38,380 bases of DNA from the NCBI GenBank assembly GCA_016869735.1, contig VGDL01000034.1:1-38380 (forward strand). The letters run 5' to 3'. Made by a program: the position numbers and the translations under genes. This stretch comes from Alphaproteobacteria bacterium (GTDB taxonomy: Bacteria > Pseudomonadota > Alphaproteobacteria > Acetobacterales > Acetobacteraceae). This document shows, piece by piece, positions 1,441-37,757 of this stretch (positions are counted from its first letter, which is position 1; every line of letters starts with the position of its first letter). The notes under the pieces are model-generated. The model was not told the origin of the DNA and searched no databases. It saw only the letters and a program-made list of their open reading frames with translations.

Positions 1441-3111
1441 TCAGGCGCGCGGTAATTCCTCCAGCAGCGCGCAAATCTGCTGGCGGACCAGCCATGCGGA
1501 AAACCGCGCATCCGCAGTCAGCATGGCAAAGGGAATAACGCCAAGCAGGCTGATCAGCACTGGCGCTACTATCAGCAACGCGGTGGAAGACACCGCCGCG
1601 AAAACAAAGGTCAGCGCCAAGCCTGCCAAACTAGGCGCCCAGAATTGCTTGAACGCATCCGCAAACCCAATGCCGCGTTCGCTGCGATTTTGTGGCGCCC
1701 ACCCCATGCGCACGCCAAATGGCATCGCGAGCAGAAACAGACATTGGCTCATCAATCGCGCCGGTTCCATGAAGGTGGTGAACATCACCTCGGCCAGCGC
1801 GCCGCGCAGGAACAAGGCGCGCCCACCATAACGCGCGGCAAGATCGGGCTTCAGCAAAACCTCGGCGTAGCCTGCAAGCTTCGCGGCATAGTGGCAGCAC
1901 CAGCCCGCCAAAAGCAGCGCGAGCAAGGCAACAATCGGCGTAGTGTCGCCCCCGCCGCCAAGGCCATTCCAGGCTGCCAGCAATAGGATGGCGACGTAAA
2001 AAGGCGCGCTCAAAAATAGCAGAATCGCCTGGATCAATTGCCAGCGCGCCATGGGTGTCAGGCCAGGCAGCCGCAGCAGCGCCACATATTGCATATTGCC
2101 CGCGGCCCAGCGCAGATCGCGCGTGATGAAATCACTATAGCTGGGCGGATTGCCTTCACTGCTGCCGGTATCATCGGGCAGCACGCGCACCTTCCATCCC
2201 GCGGCATGCAGGCGCGTGGCCTCCACCTGATCATGCGAAAGGATATGCGACCCATCGGGCAGGGTTTCCAACCGCGCATGGGCGCGAAAAGGCGCGATGC
2301 GGATCAGTGCGTTGTGGCCCCAATAAGGCCCCTCATCGCCCTGCCACCAGGCTTGTCCGGTGGCCCAGGCGCGCATGCCGTGGCGCATGCCGAATTGAAA
2401 CAGGCGCGGAAAGCCAGCCTTGGTCGGCCTGCCATGAATAAGTTGCTGCAAGATCGCGAGCTTCGGGTCCGCTTCCATGCAGGCGACCAGACGCAGCACC
2501 GCATCCGCCGTCATTTCAGAATCCGCATCCAGACACAGCATGAAATCATGCCCAGCCGCGTGTTGATCCAGAAACTCCATCACATTGCCGGATTTGAAGC
2601 CGGTGTTTTGCGCGCGGCGCCGGTAATGGGTTGCGATCGGTTGCGTGGCGGCAAAGGCGTGGCAGGCAGCTTCCTCGGCCACCGCGTCAGCGCCTTCGGG
2701 CGTGTCTGACAGGAACCAAAGCGAAAACCGCTCCGCCGCACTCGCCGCCGCAAGGCCAGAAAGCAAGCGCGTAAGTGGCGGCAGCACAAGCGCCATGTCT
2801 TCACGCCGGATGCAAATGGCAATGGCGGTACGGGCTTGCGGCAAACCATGGCGCGTGGCGGAAAGCGCTGGTAGGACAGCGGTGATGGGGTCGCGCGCAA
2901 ACAGCAATATGCCAAGCCCGATCAGCGCATTGCCCGCTGATAGCGCGGCCCAGGGCAGCGTGCCCGCAATGCAGATCAGGATCAGGATTTCCGCGACTGT
3001 CCACCCACCAGGCGCAAGCGTTGCCCAGGCAAGCCAGAACAACCCAGCCATGATGACCAAGGCAAGGGCGAGAAAGGCGAAACGTCGCGGCAGGATGGAC
3101 GCTTTGATCAC
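1441..3111 (-). CDS. opgH: OpgH/MdoH-type glucan glucosyltransferase
   Basis: A 556-residue inner-membrane GT2-family transferase resembling OpgH, which polymerises UDP-glucose into the osmoregulated periplasmic glucan backbone. Two membrane segments (about 11-32 and 39-72) precede the cytosolic catalytic domain with LSD (Asp136), the metal-binding LDADS (Asp195/197), HD at 293-294 and RDLRW at 331-335, the QxxRW-like acceptor motif. Several C-terminal membrane segments follow. E. coli OpgH is near 850 residues; this one lacks the long N-terminal cytoplasmic part and some C-terminal sequence, as short alphaproteobacterial forms do. The start is GTG at 3111 with a weak ribosome site. No opgG is adjacent. 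The gene lies 50 bp downstream of a Bug binding-protein gene. Confidence 0.85.
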   Translation of the reverse strand: MIKASILPRRFAFLALALVIMAGLFWLAWATLAPGGWTVAEILILICIAGTLPWAALSAGNALIGLGILLFARDPITAVLPALSATRHGLPQARTAIAICIRREDMALVLPPLTRLLSGLAAASAAERFSLWFLSDTPEGADAVAEEAACHAFAATQPIATHYRRRAQNTGFKSGNVMEFLDQHAAGHDFMLCLDADSEMTADAVLRLVACMEADPKLAILQQLIHGRPTKAGFPRLFQFGMRHGMRAWATGQAWWQGDEGPYWGHNALIRIAPFRAHARLETLPDGSHILSHDQVEATRLHAAGWKVRVLPDDTGSSEGNPPSYSDFITRDLRWAAGNMQYVALLRLPGLTPMARWQLIQAILLFLSAPFYVAILLLAAWNGLGGGGDTTPIVALLALLLAGWCCHYAAKLAGYAEVLLKPDLAARYGGRALFLRGALAEVMFTTFMEPARLMSQCLFLLAMPFGVRMGWAPQNRSERGIGFADAFKQFWAPSLAGLALTFVFAAVSSTALLIVAPVLISLLGVIPFAMLTADARFSAWLVRQQICALLEELPRA

Positions 3112-30961: not shown

Positions 30962-30982
30962 CTTCGGCTGTTTCAGCCGAAG
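30962..30982. terminator. Hairpin between convergent ATP-grasp and otnC genes
   Basis: CTTCGGCTG-TTT-CAGCCGAAG, a perfect 9-bp stem with a 3-nt loop, starting 2 bp after the ATP-grasp stop and running over the last codons of otnC. There is no T-run on either side, so it is an intrinsic-terminator-like hairpin of uncertain strength, possibly acting in both directions. Confidence 0.6.
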
Positions 30983-31605
30983 GTGCTAAGCAGATCATCC
31001 ACCTGTGCAGCCGTCAGGCTGCGCGCGCCGGCACCACGCAGCAGCAAGGCAAGTCGCGCGGCTTCTTCCAATTCCTCCGCCGCATGCACGGCATCTTCCA
31101 AAGTGCGGCCGGAAACTACCGGGCCGTGATTGGCGAGCAGCACGGCCTTCGCGCCCTTCGCGGCTTCATGGATGTCGCTTTCCATCGCGCCATCGCCAGG
31201 GCGGTAGTAGCGGATCACAGGCAGGTTCCGCCCAACGCGCATGACGAAATAGGGCGTGAGCGGCGGGATGGGCGCGACTTCCCCAGGTTCGGCAAGGCAG
31301 GCAATGGCGGTCGCATGCGTTGAATGCAAATGCACCACCGCCCCCGCATCGGGCCGCGCCGTCAGCACCGCGCGATGCATGAAGACTTCCTTGGATGGCT
31401 TGTCGCCCGAAACATGCGCAAAATCAGGCGCGAGCTTCGAAATGCGCGCGGGATCAAGCCGCCCCAGGCAGGAATTGGTCGGTGTCATCAAAAACCCGTC
31501 CGGCAGGCGCACGCTGATATTCCCCGCCGTCCCCACCGAATAGCCGCGCGCAAAAAGCGAGGCACCAAGGCCGGCAAGTTGCGCGCGTAGCGCCGCCTCA
31601 TCCAT
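30973..31605 (-). CDS. otnC: 3-oxo-tetronate 4-phosphate decarboxylase (class II aldolase family)
   Basis: A 210-residue class II aldolase/adducin-fold protein. Metal-site residues are visible in VHLHSTHATA and ANHGPVVSG; the catalytic acid region is GDKPSKEVFMHRAV. The substrate-binding start is RGYSVGTAGNISVRLPDG with MTPTNSCLGRLDP. Family and adjacency to OtnK point to OtnC, which decarboxylates 3-oxo-tetronate 4-phosphate to dihydroxyacetone phosphate in C4 acid sugar catabolism. The ATG overlaps the otnK stop by 8 nt. The dehydrogenase and isomerase of the pathway are not adjacent. Confidence 0.88.
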   Translation of the reverse strand: MDEAALRAQLAGLGASLFARGYSVGTAGNISVRLPDGFLMTPTNSCLGRLDPARISKLAPDFAHVSGDKPSKEVFMHRAVLTARPDAGAVVHLHSTHATAIACLAEPGEVAPIPPLTPYFVMRVGRNLPVIRYYRPGDGAMESDIHEAAKGAKAVLLANHGPVVSGRTLEDAVHAAEELEEAARLALLLRGAGARSLTAAQVDDLLSTFG

Positions 31606-31624
31606 GATCGAACGCCTTCAGGAA
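31598..31624. repeat. 27-bp repeat, copy 1, at the otnK 3' end
   Basis: Matches 33732-33758 in 23 of 27 positions, same orientation. It encodes the end of OtnK (FLKAFDHG-stop) and contains the start codon of otnC. See the second copy. Confidence 0.6.
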
Positions 31625-32857
31625 GAAATCACGCGCACCGAAATTGCCGGACTTCAAGGCAAGATGTAGCCCGCGCGGCTCGGCAAAAGTCCAGGGCACG
31701 CCCGGATCAATCTCTGGTCCGATACGCAGCGCCGTGACGCCAAGGCGCTGCACAACGGCGCCGGAGGTTTCTCCGCCCGCCACCACAAGCCGTCCGACGC
31801 CGCGCGCGACCAACCCTTCGGCAATTGCGGCCATGGCGGTTTCGATCAAGGCACCTGCAGCATCGCGCCCAAGTTTTGCCTGCAAGGCTGCAACCTTTTC
31901 CGGCGGCGCGCTCGCGGCAATCACCACCGGGCGATCCGCCGCCAATTTGCCCGCCACCCATTCCAGCGCCCGGGCCGTGAGCGCCGCCGCATCAGGTGTG
32001 GCGAGCGCATCCAATTCCAGCACCGGCACGTGATCGCGCGCGAGGCCGATTTGCCCGAGTGTCGCGCGTGAACAGGACCCCGCCACCACAGCCGCCATGC
32101 CCTGCATGGGCGGCAGGCTGGCCGCATCGCCGCGTGTTGGCAGCAGCCCAGCGCGGCGGAAATTCTCAGGCAGGCCCATCGCCACACCGGAACCGCCGGT
32201 GATCAGCGCGTGTTGCGCCGCCGCCTCACCAATCGCGAGCAAATGCTGGTCCGTCACCGCATCCACAATCGCGTAGCGCCGGCCTTGTTCGGCCAAGCGC
32301 ATCATGGCTTGCCGCGTGGCCGCCGCACCTTGTTCAACGGTGGTGAAGGGCACGAGGCCGACCGCGCCATCGGTTTGCCGGCCCAGCACGCGCACCAGAT
32401 TGGCATCCGTCATCGGCGTCAGCGGATGGTTTTCCATGCCACTTTCATTCAGCAACGCATTGCCGACGAAAAGATGGCCCAGATAAATCGTGCGCCCATT
32501 CGTCGGAAAGGCCGGACAAGCCAACGCAAAGCCTGACCCCAGGCGCTTCAGCAGCGCATCCGCGACAGGCCCGATATTACCGTGATCCGTGCTGTCAAAG
32601 GTCGAGCAATATTTCCAGAAAATCTGTTTGGCACCCGCGGCCAGCAACGCATCACAAGCGGCGAGTGATTGCGCCACGGCTTCACCAACCGGCGCGGTGC
32701 GCGATTTCAACGCAATGATCACGGCATCCGCTTCCGGCAGGGGGCCGGTCGCCACGCCAATCACCTGCACGGCAGTCATGCCGCCTTTGACAAGGGTATT
32801 CGCGAGGTCCGTCGCCCCCGTGAAATCATCCGCGATGCAGCCAAGCCAAAGGGGCAT
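31598..32857 (-). CDS. otnK: 3-oxo-tetronate kinase, four-carbon acid sugar kinase family
   Basis: A 419-residue DUF1537-type kinase. The N-terminal domain opens GCIADDFTGATDLAN and has WKYCSTFDSTDHGNIGP, CPAFPTNGRTIYLGHLFV and NESGMENHPLTPMTDAN, the substrate-binding region. The C-terminal nucleotide-binding domain has LVVAGGETSGAVVQRLG and EIDPGVPWTF. It phosphorylates the 3-oxo derivative of threonate or erythronate, and OtnC acts next. The start lies 6 nt after the methyltransferase stop, so it sits in the same transcription unit as the genes from 37757 down. Its last codons repeat those of the GT gene (see repeats). Confidence 0.92.
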   Translation of the reverse strand: MPLWLGCIADDFTGATDLANTLVKGGMTAVQVIGVATGPLPEADAVIIALKSRTAPVGEAVAQSLAACDALLAAGAKQIFWKYCSTFDSTDHGNIGPVADALLKRLGSGFALACPAFPTNGRTIYLGHLFVGNALLNESGMENHPLTPMTDANLVRVLGRQTDGAVGLVPFTTVEQGAAATRQAMMRLAEQGRRYAIVDAVTDQHLLAIGEAAAQHALITGGSGVAMGLPENFRRAGLLPTRGDAASLPPMQGMAAVVAGSCSRATLGQIGLARDHVPVLELDALATPDAAALTARALEWVAGKLAADRPVVIAASAPPEKVAALQAKLGRDAAGALIETAMAAIAEGLVARGVGRLVVAGGETSGAVVQRLGVTALRIGPEIDPGVPWTFAEPRGLHLALKSGNFGARDFFLKAFDHG

Positions 32858-32863
32858 AATCGT

Positions 32864-33739
32864 CTACCTTGCAGGAGGAAGGGCGAGGAAATCCTGATGA
32901 CCAATGCGCACGGCAAGCTGCCCGGCATCGGCTTGGTCGCGCCGCGCCTCAAGCCAATCCAGAATGGCTTCCGCATCGCGCCTTTCCCAGCCGAGTGCGG
33001 CCATGCCATGGCCATCGGCAATGGCGCGGGTGAAGGCGCGGGCGCGGCGATCCACCACCCAATCGCTCGATGCGCGATGAATGGCATAGCCATGCGCGGC
33101 AAAGGCTTCCGCCATCACAGCGGGTGCCTGTGGGCCCAGTGATGCGCCACCAAAACCTTTGTCGCGCGCTTGGTCACGGCGAAAGCCGCGCGCCACCAAA
33201 GCATCGGCAGGATAGGGCGGGCTGAAACGCTCACGGCCGGTCACATTCAGCGCAGCGTAGAAGGGCAAGCGGCGCGCGGCGCAGGCGGCGGCCATGGCTT
33301 CCACCCAGCCGCGTGAGACAAGATCACAGAGCGCGGTGCTCACCACCGCATCTACGCGTTCCAAGGGCAGATTGGCCGGCGCTGCGGCAAGATCAGCGAG
33401 GATGGCTTCAACGCGCCAGGCACCATGGGGCGCATGCACCAAAAGCGCGCTGCGCCCTGGATTGGTGGTGGGCCAGCCGACAGCCTCTGCCCGTTCAGCG
33501 ATGGTATCAAAGGCGCGGGCGAGCAATTCCGCATCGCTATCCACCAGCGTCCAGCTTTGCGCGCGGCCAATGAAATGGCCAAGCCAGCGCAGCAAGCTAC
33601 CCGTGCCAGCGCCCAAATCAAGCAGGCGCGGTCTTGCGGGTAGGGAAGCCGCGAGCATCGCCGCCAATTCTGCATTGCGTGCGACGGCATCATGCGGTTC
33701 ACGCAGATCGAGCCAATCGCCATCGAATTCTTCAGCCAT
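32864..33739 (-). CDS. Class I SAM-dependent methyltransferase
   Basis: A 291-residue protein with a Rossmann methyltransferase core: motif I PRLLDLGAGTGSLLRWLG (about 35-55), acidic Asp in WTLVDSDAELLARA, and a DAVVSTALCDLVSRGW segment at the motif IV position. The C-terminal part has FYAALNVTGRERFSPPYPAD and later WVVDRRARAFTRAIADG. The substrate is unknown. The ATG at 33739 lies inside the 3' end of the glycosyltransferase gene (8-bp overlap), so the two are coupled and probably modify the same molecule. Confidence 0.88.
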   Translation of the reverse strand: MAEEFDGDWLDLREPHDAVARNAELAAMLAASLPARPRLLDLGAGTGSLLRWLGHFIGRAQSWTLVDSDAELLARAFDTIAERAEAVGWPTTNPGRSALLVHAPHGAWRVEAILADLAAAPANLPLERVDAVVSTALCDLVSRGWVEAMAAACAARRLPFYAALNVTGRERFSPPYPADALVARGFRRDQARDKGFGGASLGPQAPAVMAEAFAAHGYAIHRASSDWVVDRRARAFTRAIADGHGMAALGWERRDAEAILDWLEARRDQADAGQLAVRIGHQDFLALPPAR

Positions 33740-33758
33740 GATCAAGCGCTTTCAGGAA
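33732..33758. repeat. 27-bp repeat, copy 2, at the GT4 3' end
   Basis: Partner of 31598-31624 (23 of 27 identical, direct). It encodes FLKALDHG-stop of the glycosyltransferase and contains the methyltransferase start codon. Both copies sit at the same structural place: the end of one gene overlapping the start of the next. Confidence 0.6.
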
Positions 33759-34778
33759 AGCCACGGCACGATCGGACCAGCGTGGCAGCGCCTGCCCCGC
33801 GCGCCAGGATGCTGCGGCCATATCGGCACGCAAGGCGGTATCGAAAATCGGTCGGCGCATGGCGCGTGACAGCGCGTTATGATCATCCACGGCGGCAATC
33901 ACGGCGGCATCTTCCGGCACAATATCGGCAATCGCACCGCCGGCGGTAATCGCCATGGGCAGGCCGCGCGCCATCGCCTCAGCCGCCGCCATGCCATAGC
34001 CTTCATAGCGTGTGGCGAGCGCGAAAAGATCAGCGCGCGCATATTCCGCTTCCAAAGCGGCATCGGGCAGCGCACCCAGGAAGCGCACGCGTTGCGCAAT
34101 GCCAAGCTCGGCGGCCAGCACGCGCAGCCCATCGGCATGCACGGGATCGCGTGTGGCATCGCCGGCGATGGCAAGCGACCATTCAAGATCGGTCAGACGC
34201 GCAAGGGCGCGCAGCAGCACATCATGCCCCTTGCGCGGCACGAGCAAGCCAATGCTGAGGATGGCGCAACCGGGACCGGCGGAACCCACCGCGCGCGGCG
34301 CGGCATCCGTGCCTGGCTCAACCACGCTGATGCGCGCGTGATCCACACCGAATCCTTCGGGCAAATCCCGCGCTGTGAGGGTTGATGTGGTGATGATGCG
34401 CGCACAGGTGCTGAACAAGACGCGTTCGGCGGCCTTCAAGGCTTCGCGCTGGCCTTCCGGGGCGCCGGTTTCAAGCGCGGTCGGGTGATGGATCAGCGCC
34501 GTTGCGCTGCGGCGGGTCAATTCATCGGCGAAGGGCAAAAAAGCGGGTAAGCCGAGCCCATCAATCACGATGCGCGCACCGGCGGGAATGGCGGCGAGTG
34601 CGGCGCGCGCCGCTTCGGTCGCGGTTTCATCCGGAAAGGGATGGCGCCCCGCCAATTCCACCACATGCACATCCTGTCCAAGTACGCGCAGCCCTTCGAC
34701 CATGCGGCGATCATAGATATAGCCGCCGGAAATCGCGCTGAAGGGCGCGGGGACGAGAAGGTGGATGGCGCCGGTCAT
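33732..34778 (-). CDS. GT4-family glycosyltransferase
   Basis: A 348-residue GT-B enzyme. The N-terminal half has PFSAISGGYIYDRRMVEGL and LIHHPTALETG; the C-terminal nucleotide-sugar half has CAILSIGLLVPRKGHDVLL and RYEGYGMAAAEAMARGLP, where Glu-x7-Glu is the GT4 donor motif. There is no membrane segment or signal, so it acts in the cytosol on a soluble or peripheral acceptor. The ATG at 34778 overlaps the toxin stop (ATGA) and has no Shine-Dalgarno sequence of its own, so its translation may depend on the toxin-gene ribosomes. It is coupled to the methyltransferase downstream. Confidence 0.88.
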   Translation of the reverse strand: MTGAIHLLVPAPFSAISGGYIYDRRMVEGLRVLGQDVHVVELAGRHPFPDETATEAARAALAAIPAGARIVIDGLGLPAFLPFADELTRRSATALIHHPTALETGAPEGQREALKAAERVLFSTCARIITTSTLTARDLPEGFGVDHARISVVEPGTDAAPRAVGSAGPGCAILSIGLLVPRKGHDVLLRALARLTDLEWSLAIAGDATRDPVHADGLRVLAAELGIAQRVRFLGALPDAALEAEYARADLFALATRYEGYGMAAAEAMARGLPMAITAGGAIADIVPEDAAVIAAVDDHNALSRAMRRPIFDTALRADMAAASWRAGQALPRWSDRAVAFLKALDHG

Positions 34779-35218
34779 GGGGGGCTTTGGGTACCTTGCT
34801 GATGCATCCATGGGTCTATCACCGCTATGCCGCAACCCGCAAAATCGGCGGTGTTGCGTGTCGCGATGGCGGCCTGCCGGGCGCGGGCAATGGCGGCGAT
34901 TTGGCAGTCAGCGAGGCTGATCGGGCGGCCTGCGGCGCGCCGTTCCAGAAACACCAAAGCGAAGGCTTGGGCGGCGGCGCTATCAAAAGGCAGGATGCGG
35001 CCCGCGAAATCCTCGGCGATCATGGCATCAATCGCGGCCATCAATTGGTCGTGGCGCCTGCCGGCGGGCAGCATGGCGGCACCGCGGCGCAATTCCGCCT
35101 CTCCAATCGCGCTCAGATACAAATCATGCGCTTCCTGCGCGGCGAACCAAGCCAGCACGGCCTCGGTTGGTGCAGGGCGCATGAGTTCGGAAACCACATT
35201 CGTATCCAGCAGGATCAT
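34775..35218 (-). CDS. PIN-domain toxin, FitB/VapC type
   Basis: A 147-residue PIN ribonuclease toxin. The catalytic acidic residues are Asp5 in MILLDTNVVSELMRP, Glu in SAIGEAELRRG, Asp in ISLADCQIAAIA and the TRNTADFAGCGI Asp. FitB/VapC toxins cleave RNA (often tRNA or rRNA) and are held inactive by the cognate antitoxin. The ATG at 35218 begins 7 nt after the antitoxin stop. Its own stop overlaps the start of the GT4 gene, so the toxin gene is embedded inside a metabolic operon. Confidence 0.92.
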   Translation of the reverse strand: MILLDTNVVSELMRPAPTEAVLAWFAAQEAHDLYLSAIGEAELRRGAAMLPAGRRHDQLMAAIDAMIAEDFAGRILPFDSAAAQAFALVFLERRAAGRPISLADCQIAAIARARQAAIATRNTADFAGCGIAVIDPWMHQQGTQSPP

Positions 35219-35225
35219 GCGCGCT

Positions 35226-35468
35226 TCAGTCGAGGCGCGGCGGTGCCGGCATGGGCTCTCGGTCCGGCAATTCCAGTTCAACGCCGCCGAGCGCGACGAA
35301 ACGGCGATGGATGGCCTCGCCCAGGTTTGGGGCTGGGGCGGGGCGGCTCATGGCCTGGCGGAGGATATCGCGCGCTTCTTCCTCCATGGAACGGCCATGT
35401 TCGGCGGCACGGATGCGCAGGCTCCGCTTCAGCGCCTCATCAAGATTGCGGATGGTGATGCTGGCCAT
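35226..35468 (-). CDS. Ribbon-helix-helix antitoxin, FitA type
   Basis: An 80-residue antitoxin. The N-terminal strand and helices MASITIRNLDEALKRSLRIR and AAEHGRSMEEEARDILRQAM are the Arc/FitA ribbon-helix-helix, a DNA-binding dimer. The C-terminal tail (LGEAIHRRFVALGGVELELP) should wrap the toxin. The ATG at 35468 has AAGGG at 8 nt. A promoter with an overlapping palindrome lies immediately upstream, fitting autorepression by the toxin-antitoxin complex. Confidence 0.92.
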   Translation of the reverse strand: MASITIRNLDEALKRSLRIRAAEHGRSMEEEARDILRQAMSRPAPAPNLGEAIHRRFVALGGVELELPDREPMPAPPRLD

Positions 35469-35485
35469 GTTGGCGCCCTTTTTTG

Positions 35486-35521
35486 TACAATCATTGTAAT
35501 CATTGATTGCGCTGAAATCAA
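35486..35521 (-). promoter_or_regulatory. Promoter and operator of the toxin-antitoxin pair
   Basis: On the minus strand: -35 TTGATT (35521-35516), 17-bp spacer, -10 TACAAT (35498-35493). The perfect palindrome TACAAT-G-ATTGTA (35498-35486) covers the -10 box and ends 17 bp before the antitoxin ATG. This is the standard layout for a ribbon-helix-helix autorepressor. It gives the toxin-antitoxin genes a promoter inside the larger minus-strand gene run. Confidence 0.75.
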
Positions 35522-35544
35522 GCGAGACGTTGGCAGCGATCAAC

Positions 35545-35961
35545 TCAGGCCGGCGGCGCCTCACCCGGTGCGGCTTCGTAGGCGGCCCAGGCGATATGGC
35601 TTTCGCGCAGCAGCACCTTAAGCCCCGTCACCGCCTTCCCGCCCGCGCCCAAGCGGCCTTCAGCCAGCGCGGCCGACAGGCAGCGATGGATATGCAGGCA
35701 AAGATATTCGGTGGTGGTGTTTTGTCCTGCGAAAATCGGTTCCGCATCCAGATTGCGATAATCGAAGCCATCCAGAATGTGGCGTAGTTCCACCTTGGCC
35801 GCGGCGATATCCACCAGCAGATTGAGCGGATCGAGCTTCGGCGCGCGGAACTCCGCCTCCACAATGAAGGTCGCGCCATGCAGGCGCTGCGCGGGGCCGA
35901 ATTCCGCGCCGCGGAAGGAATGGGCGATCATGACGTGATCAACAACGGTCAGGCTGAACAT
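35545..35961 (-). CDS. PTPS/QueD-fold protein lacking canonical catalytic residues
   Basis: A 138-residue protein of the 6-pyruvoyl-tetrahydropterin synthase/6-carboxytetrahydropterin synthase family. Visible are IAHSF (His14), QRLHGATFIVEAEF (His29) and FAGQNTTTEYLC with the conserved Glu. In QueD and PTPS the second motif is HGH with a Cys shortly before it; here it reads HGA and no Cys precedes it, so one zinc ligand and the catalytic Cys are missing. The usual LDH-x2-LN also reads LDGFDYRNLD. It is thus a separate subgroup, probably acting on a related but different substrate. It lies 30 bp after the dehydrogenase gene. Confidence 0.82.
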   Translation of the reverse strand: MFSLTVVDHVMIAHSFRGAEFGPAQRLHGATFIVEAEFRAPKLDPLNLLVDIAAAKVELRHILDGFDYRNLDAEPIFAGQNTTTEYLCLHIHRCLSAALAEGRLGAGGKAVTGLKVLLRESHIAWAAYEAAPGEAPPA

Positions 35962-35991
35962 GGCGGGGGTGTTCCTATGCGGTTCGGCGCT

Positions 35992-36975
35992 TCATGCACC
36001 ATAGGTCACCAGCGGGCAAAGCGGCGCAGGCTGGCTGGGGGCAGGGTTCAGCAGACCGGGTAGGGCTTGTGGCAAATCATCGAAGCTTGTGGCGGGGCCG
36101 ATCAGCGCCTCAAGCGCCGGATCAGCCAGCAGGCCAAGCGCCTGGGCCATGCGCTGCCCAAAACTGCGGCGCCCGCGCATGGCGGGCGCGACGGCGCCAA
36201 CCTGACTTGAAATCAGGCGAAGGCGGCGGGAGTGGAAGGCTTCACCCAAGGGCAGCGCCACTTCCTGCGCGCCGAACCAGGAGGCTTCGATGATCCTCGC
36301 TTCAAACGCTGCACATTGCAGGGCTTGGCGCAGCCCAGCGGGATTGGCGCTGGCGTGGATGATCAATTCCTGATCGGTGGGCGCGGCTTCGGGGGATGCA
36401 AAGGTGGCGCCCAGCTTTTCCGCAATGGCGCGGCGTGACGCATCTGGGTCTATGATCGTCACCGCCATGGCGGGAATGCGCGCCAGCAGATAGGCCACCA
36501 GCAGCCCAACCACGCCAGCGCCAATCACCAAGGCACGCTCTCCCGCCAAAGGCTCAGCGTCCCACAGGATATTCAGCGCGGTTTCCATATTGGCGCCGAG
36601 CACGGCGCGGTGATCTGGCACTGTATCCGGGATGGGGCTGCTCATGGCAGCGGGCGCAAGGAAAATATCCTGATGCGGGTGGAGGCAAAACACGCGTGTG
36701 CCTTGCAATTCGGCGGGGCCTTCGATGACGCGTGCCACGGCGCTGTAGCCATATTTCACCGGGAAGGGGAAATCGCCCGCCTGCAGGGGGCAGCGCATCA
36801 CGCCCCATTGGTTTTCCGGCACCTTGCCGGCGAGCACGAGGCGCTCCGTGCCGCGCGATATGCCCGATGCCAGCATGCGCGCCAGCACCTGATCCGGTGC
36901 GCGCGCGGGCAGGGCTTCGCTGCGGAGCTCCGCGACACCGGGGGCAATCGTCCATAAGGCGCGCGCTTTGGTCAT
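35992..36975 (-). CDS. MDR-family dehydrogenase, BchC-like, no zinc site
   Basis: A 327-residue medium-chain dehydrogenase/reductase. The N-terminal domain has LASGISRGTERLVLAG, which resembles bacteriochlorophyllide dehydrogenase BchC (SGISxGTE) rather than the zinc alcohol-dehydrogenase Cys-Gly-Thr-Asp motif, and there is no structural-zinc Cys cluster. The nucleotide-binding domain starts ERALVIGAGVVGLLVAYLLA with IIDPDASRRAIAEKLGA. It should oxidise or reduce an alcohol/carbonyl with NAD(P)H. No bacteriochlorophyll genes are near, so BchC function is not claimed. Its ATG overlaps the RibD-like stop (ATGA). Confidence 0.85.
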   Translation of the reverse strand: MTKARALWTIAPGVAELRSEALPARAPDQVLARMLASGISRGTERLVLAGKVPENQWGVMRCPLQAGDFPFPVKYGYSAVARVIEGPAELQGTRVFCLHPHQDIFLAPAAMSSPIPDTVPDHRAVLGANMETALNILWDAEPLAGERALVIGAGVVGLLVAYLLARIPAMAVTIIDPDASRRAIAEKLGATFASPEAAPTDQELIIHASANPAGLRQALQCAAFEARIIEASWFGAQEVALPLGEAFHSRRLRLISSQVGAVAPAMRGRRSFGQRMAQALGLLADPALEALIGPATSFDDLPQALPGLLNPAPSQPAPLCPLVTYGA

Positions 36976-37757
36976 GGATGGCCCCCGGGCTTGGCGCGAT
37001 CCAGCGCGGCATCAATCAGGATATCGGGCGCGATATCATGCACGCGCCAGGTAAAGCGCAGCCCATCAGTGATGCGCGCCACTTCCGGCAGGGTGAAAGC
37101 CGGAATGCCGGAACCGAGCAGCACGGGGGCCACGGTGACATGCAGCCGATCAAGACAACCAGCCGCCAAAAAGCGGGAGACGGTCAGCCCGCCGCCTTCA
37201 ACAAATACCCGGCTGGCGCCGCGCGCCTTGAGCGCCGCAAGCAAGGGTGGGAGCGCGAGACCTCCGCCCGGGGCGCGCGGCAGGCGCAAAACCTCGGCCA
37301 AGCCGTGATGGTCAGCCCCGCCGGCATCGGCAGCGCAGACCAACAAGGTGGGCGGCCCGCTTTGGAAAATGCCGTAATCGGTGGAGAGTTTACGGTCCGT
37401 ATCCAGCACCACGCGGAGCGGGTCCGGCCCCGGCACTTCGCGGGTGGTGAGGCGCGGATTGTCATGGCGCACCGTGCCCGCGCCGACCACCACGGCATGG
37501 CAAAGGGCGCGCAGCCGATGGGTGTGCAGGATATCGCCGGGGCCGCCGATCCATTGGCTTGACCCGGCAGCGGTCGCGATCCGGCCATCCAGCGTTTGCG
37601 CGAGCCGACCGATCACGCGGCAGCCATCAGGCGCTGCGGGCGGCGCCAGCACCGCGCCAAATAGCGCGGCAAGCGGGCCATCCGGCAAGGCCGCGCCCGC
37701 GCCATCGCGAAGCGCGAGCAGCGCTGACCAATCGGCGGCGGCGGTGGCGGATTCCAT
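36972..37757 (-). CDS. RibD C-terminal-type reductase
   Basis: A 261-residue protein with the DHFR-like RibD_C fold: VIGRLAQTLDGRIATAAGSS, AVVVGAGTVRHDNPRLTTR, and SRVFVEGGGLTVSRFLAAG with the NADPH-binding glycines, then VTVAPVLLGSG. The deaminase half of bifunctional RibD is absent; the first 45 residues are unrelated. Such proteins reduce the ribosyl side chain of pyrimidine or pterin intermediates with NADPH (riboflavin, methanopterin and related pathways). Standing first in an operon with dehydrogenase and PTPS-like genes rather than rib genes, it probably serves another heterocycle pathway (inference). Confidence 0.87.
   Translation of the reverse strand: MESATAAADWSALLALRDGAGAALPDGPLAALFGAVLAPPAAPDGCRVIGRLAQTLDGRIATAAGSSQWIGGPGDILHTHRLRALCHAVVVGAGTVRHDNPRLTTREVPGPDPLRVVLDTDRKLSTDYGIFQSGPPTLLVCAADAGGADHHGLAEVLRLPRAPGGGLALPPLLAALKARGASRVFVEGGGLTVSRFLAAGCLDRLHVTVAPVLLGSGIPAFTLPEVARITDGLRFTWRVHDIAPDILIDAALDRAKPGGHP

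Follow-up and report, generated by a model that had tools for sequence, protein, structure and literature searches.

A conserved gene set in an Acetobacteraceae contig

The window analyzed here is the whole stretch of 38,380 nucleotides (VGDL01000034.1, positions 1 to 38,380) that forms contig 34 of a 3.25 Mb alphaproteobacterial genome of the Acetobacteraceae (GCA_016869735.1). On its minus strand, with frames intact, lie genes for a RibD_C-type reductase, a dehydrogenase distantly like BchC, a T-fold protein of the PTPS-IV type, a GT4-type glycosyltransferase and a class I S-adenosylmethionine (SAM)-dependent methyltransferase (Table 1). An initial annotation of this DNA had described five same-strand genes with short overlaps or gaps and proposed that they form an undescribed pathway; the coordinates bear the arrangement out, with an overlap of 4 bp between reductase and dehydrogenase genes, a gap of 30 bp between dehydrogenase and PTPS-IV, and an overlap of 8 bp between glycosyltransferase and methyltransferase. 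The 766 bp between the PTPS-IV and GT4 genes are filled by genes for a FitA-type antitoxin and a PIN toxin. Among the matches listed from the named collection, the closest relatives of the window come from Roseomonas/Neoroseomonas and from further members of the Acetobacteraceae, with a PTPS identity of 96% at locus L077.

Table 1. Features of the operon region of the window, listed in the direction of transcription
Feature	Position	Strand	Evidence
RibD_C-type reductase	36972..37757	-	PF01872 137 bits, cut-off 24.1; sole Pfam family in the protein
MDR-type (medium-chain) dehydrogenase, distantly BchC-like	35992..36975	-	PF00107 26.2 bits (below cut-off 31.8); TIGR01202 50.5 bits (below cut-off 291)
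PTPS-IV (T-fold) protein, SCO6650 family	35545..35961	-	PF01242 69 bits; FGPAQ signature; 3d7j E=4.6e-42
FitA-like ribbon-helix-helix antitoxin	35226..35468	-	PF22513 72.9 bits, above cut-off; missing at the L078 and L079 junction
PIN-domain toxin (FitB/VapC-like)	34775..35218	-	PF01850 48 bits, above cut-off; missing at the L078 and L079 junction
GT4-type glycosyltransferase	33732..34778	-	PF00534 92.8 bits; likely start overlaps toxin stop
Class I SAM-dependent methyltransferase	32864..33739	-	
3-oxo-tetronate kinase OtnK, perhaps same transcript	31598..32857	-	NF043035 602.5 bits, cut-off 350
3-oxo-tetronate 4-phosphate decarboxylase OtnC, perhaps same transcript	30973..31605	-	NF043034 282.5 bits, cut-off 250

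Distribution and linkage

Profiles of the neighboring genes were searched against the window and 98 loci and then against 8 further actinobacterial stretches; 105 distinct loci were counted, with L119 excluded because its PTPS DNA is the same as that of L052, the only two loci for which this is so. Relatives from the named collection are the best 80 of at least 573, a selection that favors kin of the window. Neighboring genes were annotated for families that recur in several loci, and counts of absence refer throughout to the stretch examined at each locus.

The dehydrogenase, GT4 and methyltransferase genes lie on the strand of the PTPS-IV gene within 3.2 kb in 89 of the 105 loci. This linkage is present in 29 of 38 Acetobacteraceae/Rhodospirillales loci (a group that includes L112 and L116, labelled Proteobacteria only), in 34 of 37 loci of named Actinomycetota and in all four others (Lamprocystis, an Acidobacteriota, a Gemmatimonadota and an unplaced Pseudomonadota metagenome-assembled genome), as well as in 16 of 18 Pseudomonadota and 6 of 8 Actinomycetota sample loci. 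The gene set is no local accident and represents a widespread pathway shared by distant groups; co-occurrence across distant taxa, which had been anticipated, extends over several Pseudomonadota groups, Actinomycetota, one Acidobacteriota and one Gemmatimonadota and is not limited to close relatives.

At the level of genomes, PTPS-IV matches of at least 90 bits occur in 19 of 299 Pseudomonadota genomes (that of the window included), and a separate search for the methyltransferase, from which three matches below 30 bits were dropped before counting, gave matches of at least 58 bits in 17 of the 299, all 17 among the 19 PTPS-IV carriers (Fisher p ~8e-26, which is no true probability as the genomes are related). 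PTPS-IV matches above 100 bits are present in 9 of 296 Actinomycetota genomes, one of them the genome of L118, which was known beforehand to be a carrier. The RibD_C gene is linked in 69 of the 105 loci. Thirteen of the actinobacterial loci that have no linked RibD_C gene were looked at further, and the genome of each contains a match above 200 bits to A2, an alignment of cluster RibD_C proteins; since A2 draws 4 of its 10 rows from actinobacteria, the matching protein may be a general actinobacterial reductase.

The PTPS-IV protein

The PTPS-IV protein of the window is the only PF01242 match in its genome, and its domain score lies above the Pfam cut-off, as would be expected of an ordinary QueD or folate PTPS surrounded by unrelated neighbors. 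However, the motifs of PTPS-I, II and III (CxxxHGH, CxxxxxHGH and ExxHGH) are absent from the window protein, which has FGPAQxxHGA instead. FGPAQ is given as the PTPS-IV signature in passages of PMC5445326, where the motifs of the other three types are also defined, and of PMC5041015. In a midpoint-rooted tree the PTPS-IV proteins (42 rows) form a clade separate from 24 HGH-type PTPS/QueD proteins chosen by the motif HG[HYF], with support of 99/97, in agreement with the earlier expectation that the protein stands apart from genuine QueD/PTPS. In addition, que families were not found among the annotated neighbor families, and the linkage is kept in 89 loci. Identity with QueD or folate PTPS was rejected on motifs and clade and is considered very improbable. 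PTPS-IV was reportedly recognized as a subfamily of COG0720 by Phillips in 2012.

The five residues of the signature (F21-G22-P23-A24-Q25) are invariant in all 18 aligned members, the window protein included, as are H14, H28, G29, A30, E85 and E120. Compared with human PTPS and E. coli QueD, Ala30 replaces the last histidine of HGH, Ala24 occupies the position of the CxxxHGH cysteine, and the position of the LDH motif has no histidine. The protein thus retains Glu120 and His14/His28 and has lost the cysteine and the third zinc histidine of QueD/PTPS. Because the zinc histidine and the cysteine are replaced and the clade is separate, PTPS-IV chemistry probably differs from that of QueD or PTPS. 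The fold and the invariant glutamate, which we take to be the residue that anchors a 2-amino-4-oxo ring, suggest a pterin-like ligand. A single-sequence search of solved structures (E 0.001) returned one match, SCO6650 of Streptomyces coelicolor (3d7j, residues 1-131, E=4.6e-42).

An actinobacterial PTPS group that combines FGPA with HGH (L177-L184, L186, L188, L190, L192 and L195) adjoins PTPS-IV in the midpoint-rooted tree and is possibly an intermediate type.

Reductase, dehydrogenase and transferases

The window reductase belongs to the RibD_C domain family, and a Pfam scan found PF01872 alone, with no RibD deaminase domain. Its score against the bifunctional RibD equivalog (TIGR00326) is 109 bits, below the cut-off of 156, and its nearest solved relative by sequence is 6p8c, a 2,5-diamino-6-ribosylamino-4(3H)-pyrimidinone 5'-phosphate reductase.

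The dehydrogenase carries an SRGTE motif, which all 15 aligned members share without change, at a site where the usual motif is GICGTD, and is probably without catalytic zinc. The description of this protein as BchC-like holds insofar as BchC (TIGR01202) is its best NCBIfam match, but the likeness is weak, the score being far below the cut-off. A side pathway to bacteriochlorophyll or another tetrapyrrole would account for this match and for the few carriers, such as Lamprocystis, that are presumably phototrophs. Against it stand the low BchC score, on which this route was rejected, the finding of no bch families among the annotated neighbor families, and conservation of the cluster in Streptomyces and other organisms that we take to be non-phototrophic. 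Support for the tetrapyrrole-like product named as one option in the initial annotation was not seen, and such a product is hardly credible.

The nearest structures of the methyltransferase are assorted methyltransferases, and its substrate is not readable from the fold. The GT4 and methyltransferase are encoded in a single open frame of 656-662 amino acids in L055, L056, L058 and L059. At L122 they also stand in one frame (851 amino acids), which may be chance.

GTP cyclohydrolase II and creatininase

GTP cyclohydrolase II, whose frequent addition to such sets had been foreseen, is linked in 46 of the 105 loci, and a creatininase-family gene in 33; in actinobacteria the creatininase-family gene, too, is often linked. 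The residue that aligns with E. coli Tyr105 (numbered from the alignment) is Met in the Streptomyces cluster enzyme; over the 46 linked cyclohydrolases it is Met in 23, His in 5, Gln in 1 and Tyr in 17, with totals that agree between typing by alignment and by motif pattern. Creatininase is present in all 29 loci with a non-Tyr enzyme and absent from 15 of the 17 with the Tyr type (the exceptions are L056 and L117; among the loci, L205 is a contig of 3.8 kb, for which the absence of creatininase carries little weight). S. coelicolor SCO6655 is said, after work by Spoonamore in 2006, to make FAPy because of Met120. The archaeal Arf route proceeds through a formylated intermediate, a creatininase-family deformylase and a RibD_C-type reductase. 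The association at the cluster fits a formyl-retaining cyclohydrolase followed by a deformylase, and our reading is that two enzymes would open GTP in most of these actinobacteria (29 of 38 loci with linked cyclohydrolase), and that at the other loci one enzyme would mostly do so. Sinorhizobium likewise has the formylated intermediate, the deformylase and then the reductase, and its creatininase-annotated protein BrbF is a proven FAPy formamidase according to passages of PMC9478397. The cluster differs from both the archaeal ArfA-ArfB-ArfC and the BrbF systems in being linked to PTPS-IV, dehydrogenase, GT4 and methyltransferase genes, and the one cluster creatininase scanned scores 34 bits against ArfB (cut-off 180).

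In Streptomyces loci, of which L125 is an example, the gene order is PTPS, GT4, methyltransferase, flippase-like LPG_synthase_TM, creatininase and GTP cyclohydrolase II, i.e., five steps, matching the number difference between SCO6650 and SCO6655. The window's own genome has two PF00925 matches. One is a RibBA protein on contig 29 (L071) that lacks the zinc cysteine motif in its cyclohydrolase half; the other, on contig 27, is of the Tyr type, keeps the motif and is unlinked to the cluster. The opening step in this genome would fall to the contig 27 enzyme because the contig 29 protein has no zinc motif. The genome's five creatininase-family genes are on contigs other than that of the cluster.

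Early intermediates are common to F420 and riboflavin biosynthesis. A role of the set in supplying a deazaflavin (F420-like) cofactor would agree with this overlap and with a passage in which Zallot et al. state, as unpublished, a role of PTPS-IV in cofactor F420 synthesis (PMC5041015), but F420 synthesis families were not found among the annotated neighbor families (the scan covered these families and not whole genomes for F420 synthase genes), and this destination appears quite improbable.

Genes that suggest a lipid-linked product

Genes for a CDP-alcohol phosphotransferase and for the flippase-like LPG_synthase_TM are linked in 50 and 51 of the 105 loci, respectively; both are present in 48 and both absent from 52, and the CDP-alcohol catalytic motif is retained in all 50 phosphotransferases. 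A membrane sulfatase-fold protein (five predicted transmembrane segments in the one examined) is linked in 9 loci, as is an MdoH-like GT2 glycosyltransferase. Co-occurrence of the phosphotransferase and the flippase-like protein suggests that the product is lipid-linked where both are found. In its actinobacterial form the locus includes genes for creatininase, CDP-alcohol phosphotransferase and a flippase, none of which was seen at the window locus.

These four families are also what would be expected if the set made a lipid or cell-envelope glycan and the RibD_C, dehydrogenase and PTPS-fold proteins had been recruited to substrates not derived from GTP, such as a nucleotide sugar or polyol phosphate. 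Linkage of cyclohydrolase in 46 loci and of creatininase in 33 is difficult to account for unless a pyrimidine derived from GTP is involved, however, and PTPS-IV retains the invariant Glu120 with its presumed ring-anchoring role, so that a glycan product of this kind is regarded as unlikely.

Proposed pathway

From the gene families present, their conservation, the separate PTPS-IV clade, the lost QueD/PTPS residues and the association of cyclohydrolase with creatininase, we infer a set of reactions, their order and a pterin-like, glycosylated and methylated product. The operon rather probably encodes the central and final steps of a conserved, unnamed pathway fed by GTP. In the first step GTP cyclohydrolase II would open GTP, as happens in the synthesis of riboflavin (vitamin B2), to the 6-ribosylamino-pyrimidinone 5'-phosphate, the enzyme being supplied in the window's genome from contig 27; in most actinobacterial loci the variant cyclohydrolase would retain the formyl group (giving FAPy), which the creatininase-family protein would then remove. 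The RibD_C reductase would convert the ribosylamino to a ribitylamino group, and the 2-amino group would stay, because the protein has no deaminase domain. In the third step the probably zinc-free dehydrogenase would oxidize a secondary alcohol, perhaps on the ribityl chain, and the PTPS-IV protein would bind the 2-amino-4-oxopyrimidine and help to close the pteridine ring. GT4 would finally attach a sugar and the methyltransferase methylate the product, which in lineages with the phosphotransferase and flippase-like protein would probably be coupled to a phospholipid and translocated to the other side of the membrane.

Several observations weigh against this proposal. The distribution is patchy, since both same-family genomes among the 299 (G039 and G295) have no PTPS-IV match. 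The methyltransferase is missing from 13 of the 105 stretches, and a contig end does not account for at least 10 of these: the sequence stops 253 bp past the PTPS gene in L108 and 1.7 kb past it in L105, and L205 is short, but the other ten extend at least 2.8 kb downstream. The Met, His and Gln cyclohydrolases form one clade (100/99), and the association with creatininase is therefore a single evolutionary event preserved in 29 loci; creatininase also accompanies a Tyr-type enzyme in L056 and L117; and the one cluster creatininase scanned falls below the NCBIfam cut-offs, its best match being MftE of mycofactocin (131 of 172). Neither cyclohydrolase nor creatininase is linked to the cluster in the window's genome, where the contig 27 enzyme is the only cyclohydrolase with the zinc motif and would therefore serve riboflavin as well. 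None of the 38 Acetobacteraceae/Rhodospirillales loci has a CDP-alcohol phosphotransferase or flippase-like gene in the stretch examined, and matches to either in the window's genome are weak only; the lipid link is for this reason likely confined to part of the family, or made by other enzymes in the rest. The proposal does not account for OtnK and OtnC.

More tentatively, the product could represent a new class of membrane compounds, a glycosylated, methylated pteridine (or ribityl-pyrimidine) phosphate that the CDP-alcohol phosphotransferase attaches to phospholipid and that is then flipped to the outer face. PTPS-IV would here catalyze a new T-fold reaction independent of zinc and of the PTPS cysteine, and proteobacteria that have no lipid genes would make a soluble form; this extended version is doubtful. 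As gene order is kept from Roseomonas to Streptomyces and the first substrates of these orphan enzymes can be guessed, the metabolite is directly testable. Its identification would assign a function to PTPS-IV and to 3d7j (deposited as an uncharacterized protein), show what the variant Streptomyces cyclohydrolase is for, and possibly reveal a new class of pterin or lipid.

The pathway is real, widespread and, as far as seen, unnamed, although parts of it were glimpsed before. In passages of the AGeNNT paper (2017, PMC5445326) PF00925 and PF01872 adjoin 561 sequences of the PTPS-IV node (cluster-node 62), with the same FGPAQ signature as here; PF00925 is labelled there GTP cyclohydrolase I/FolE2, whereas its Pfam name is GTP cyclohydrolase II. 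Relative to the passages of PMC5445326 and PMC5041015, the linkage to dehydrogenase, GT4, methyltransferase, creatininase, CDP-alcohol phosphotransferase and flippase genes and the relation between Tyr105 and creatininase are new. Beyond these mentions, no name for the pathway or product was found in the open-licence literature (most subscription papers lay outside this scope). Because of the AGeNNT placement the word "undescribed" used earlier is right only in part, and the interpretation first offered is, overall, partly supported. The toxoflavin and pseudoiodinine operons, for which a start from GTP is proposed, likewise contain GTP cyclohydrolase, RibD and methyltransferase genes, and the seven psd genes named for pseudoiodinine include no PTPS-fold protein, MDR dehydrogenase or GT4 (both according to passages of PMC9911603).

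Toxin-antitoxin insert and neighboring genes

The adjacent FitA-like and PIN proteins constitute a FitAB/VapBC toxin-antitoxin pair. Window positions ~35543 to 34768 are missing in L078 and L079, where the flanks are adjacent and the PTPS is 95-96% identical to that of the window, and are present in L077; in L080-L082 the glycosyltransferase likewise follows directly after PTPS. The pair is thus an insert within the operon, and its bearing on the pathway is not evident. In L078 and L079 the PTPS stop overlaps the likely GT4 start (TTGA), as the toxin stop does in the window (ATGA); because this start overlaps a stop with and without the insert, translational coupling to GT4 may have been kept.

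Downstream of the methyltransferase, on the same strand, OtnK follows after a gap of 6 bp and overlaps OtnC by 8 bp, and the operon probably runs on into both genes. Both are genes of tetronate catabolism; among the 38 Acetobacteraceae/Rhodospirillales loci, OtnK accompanies the cluster in 31 and OtnC in 29. An MdoH-like GT2 gene of the window (1441-3111) was considered as a pathway member and rejected, as it lies ~30 kb from the cluster and matches glucan-synthesis models; the family is cluster-linked in 7 of 18 Pseudomonadota sample loci. At the contig end (38234-38380) lies a partial transposase-like frame, which we take to resemble IS66 orfA.

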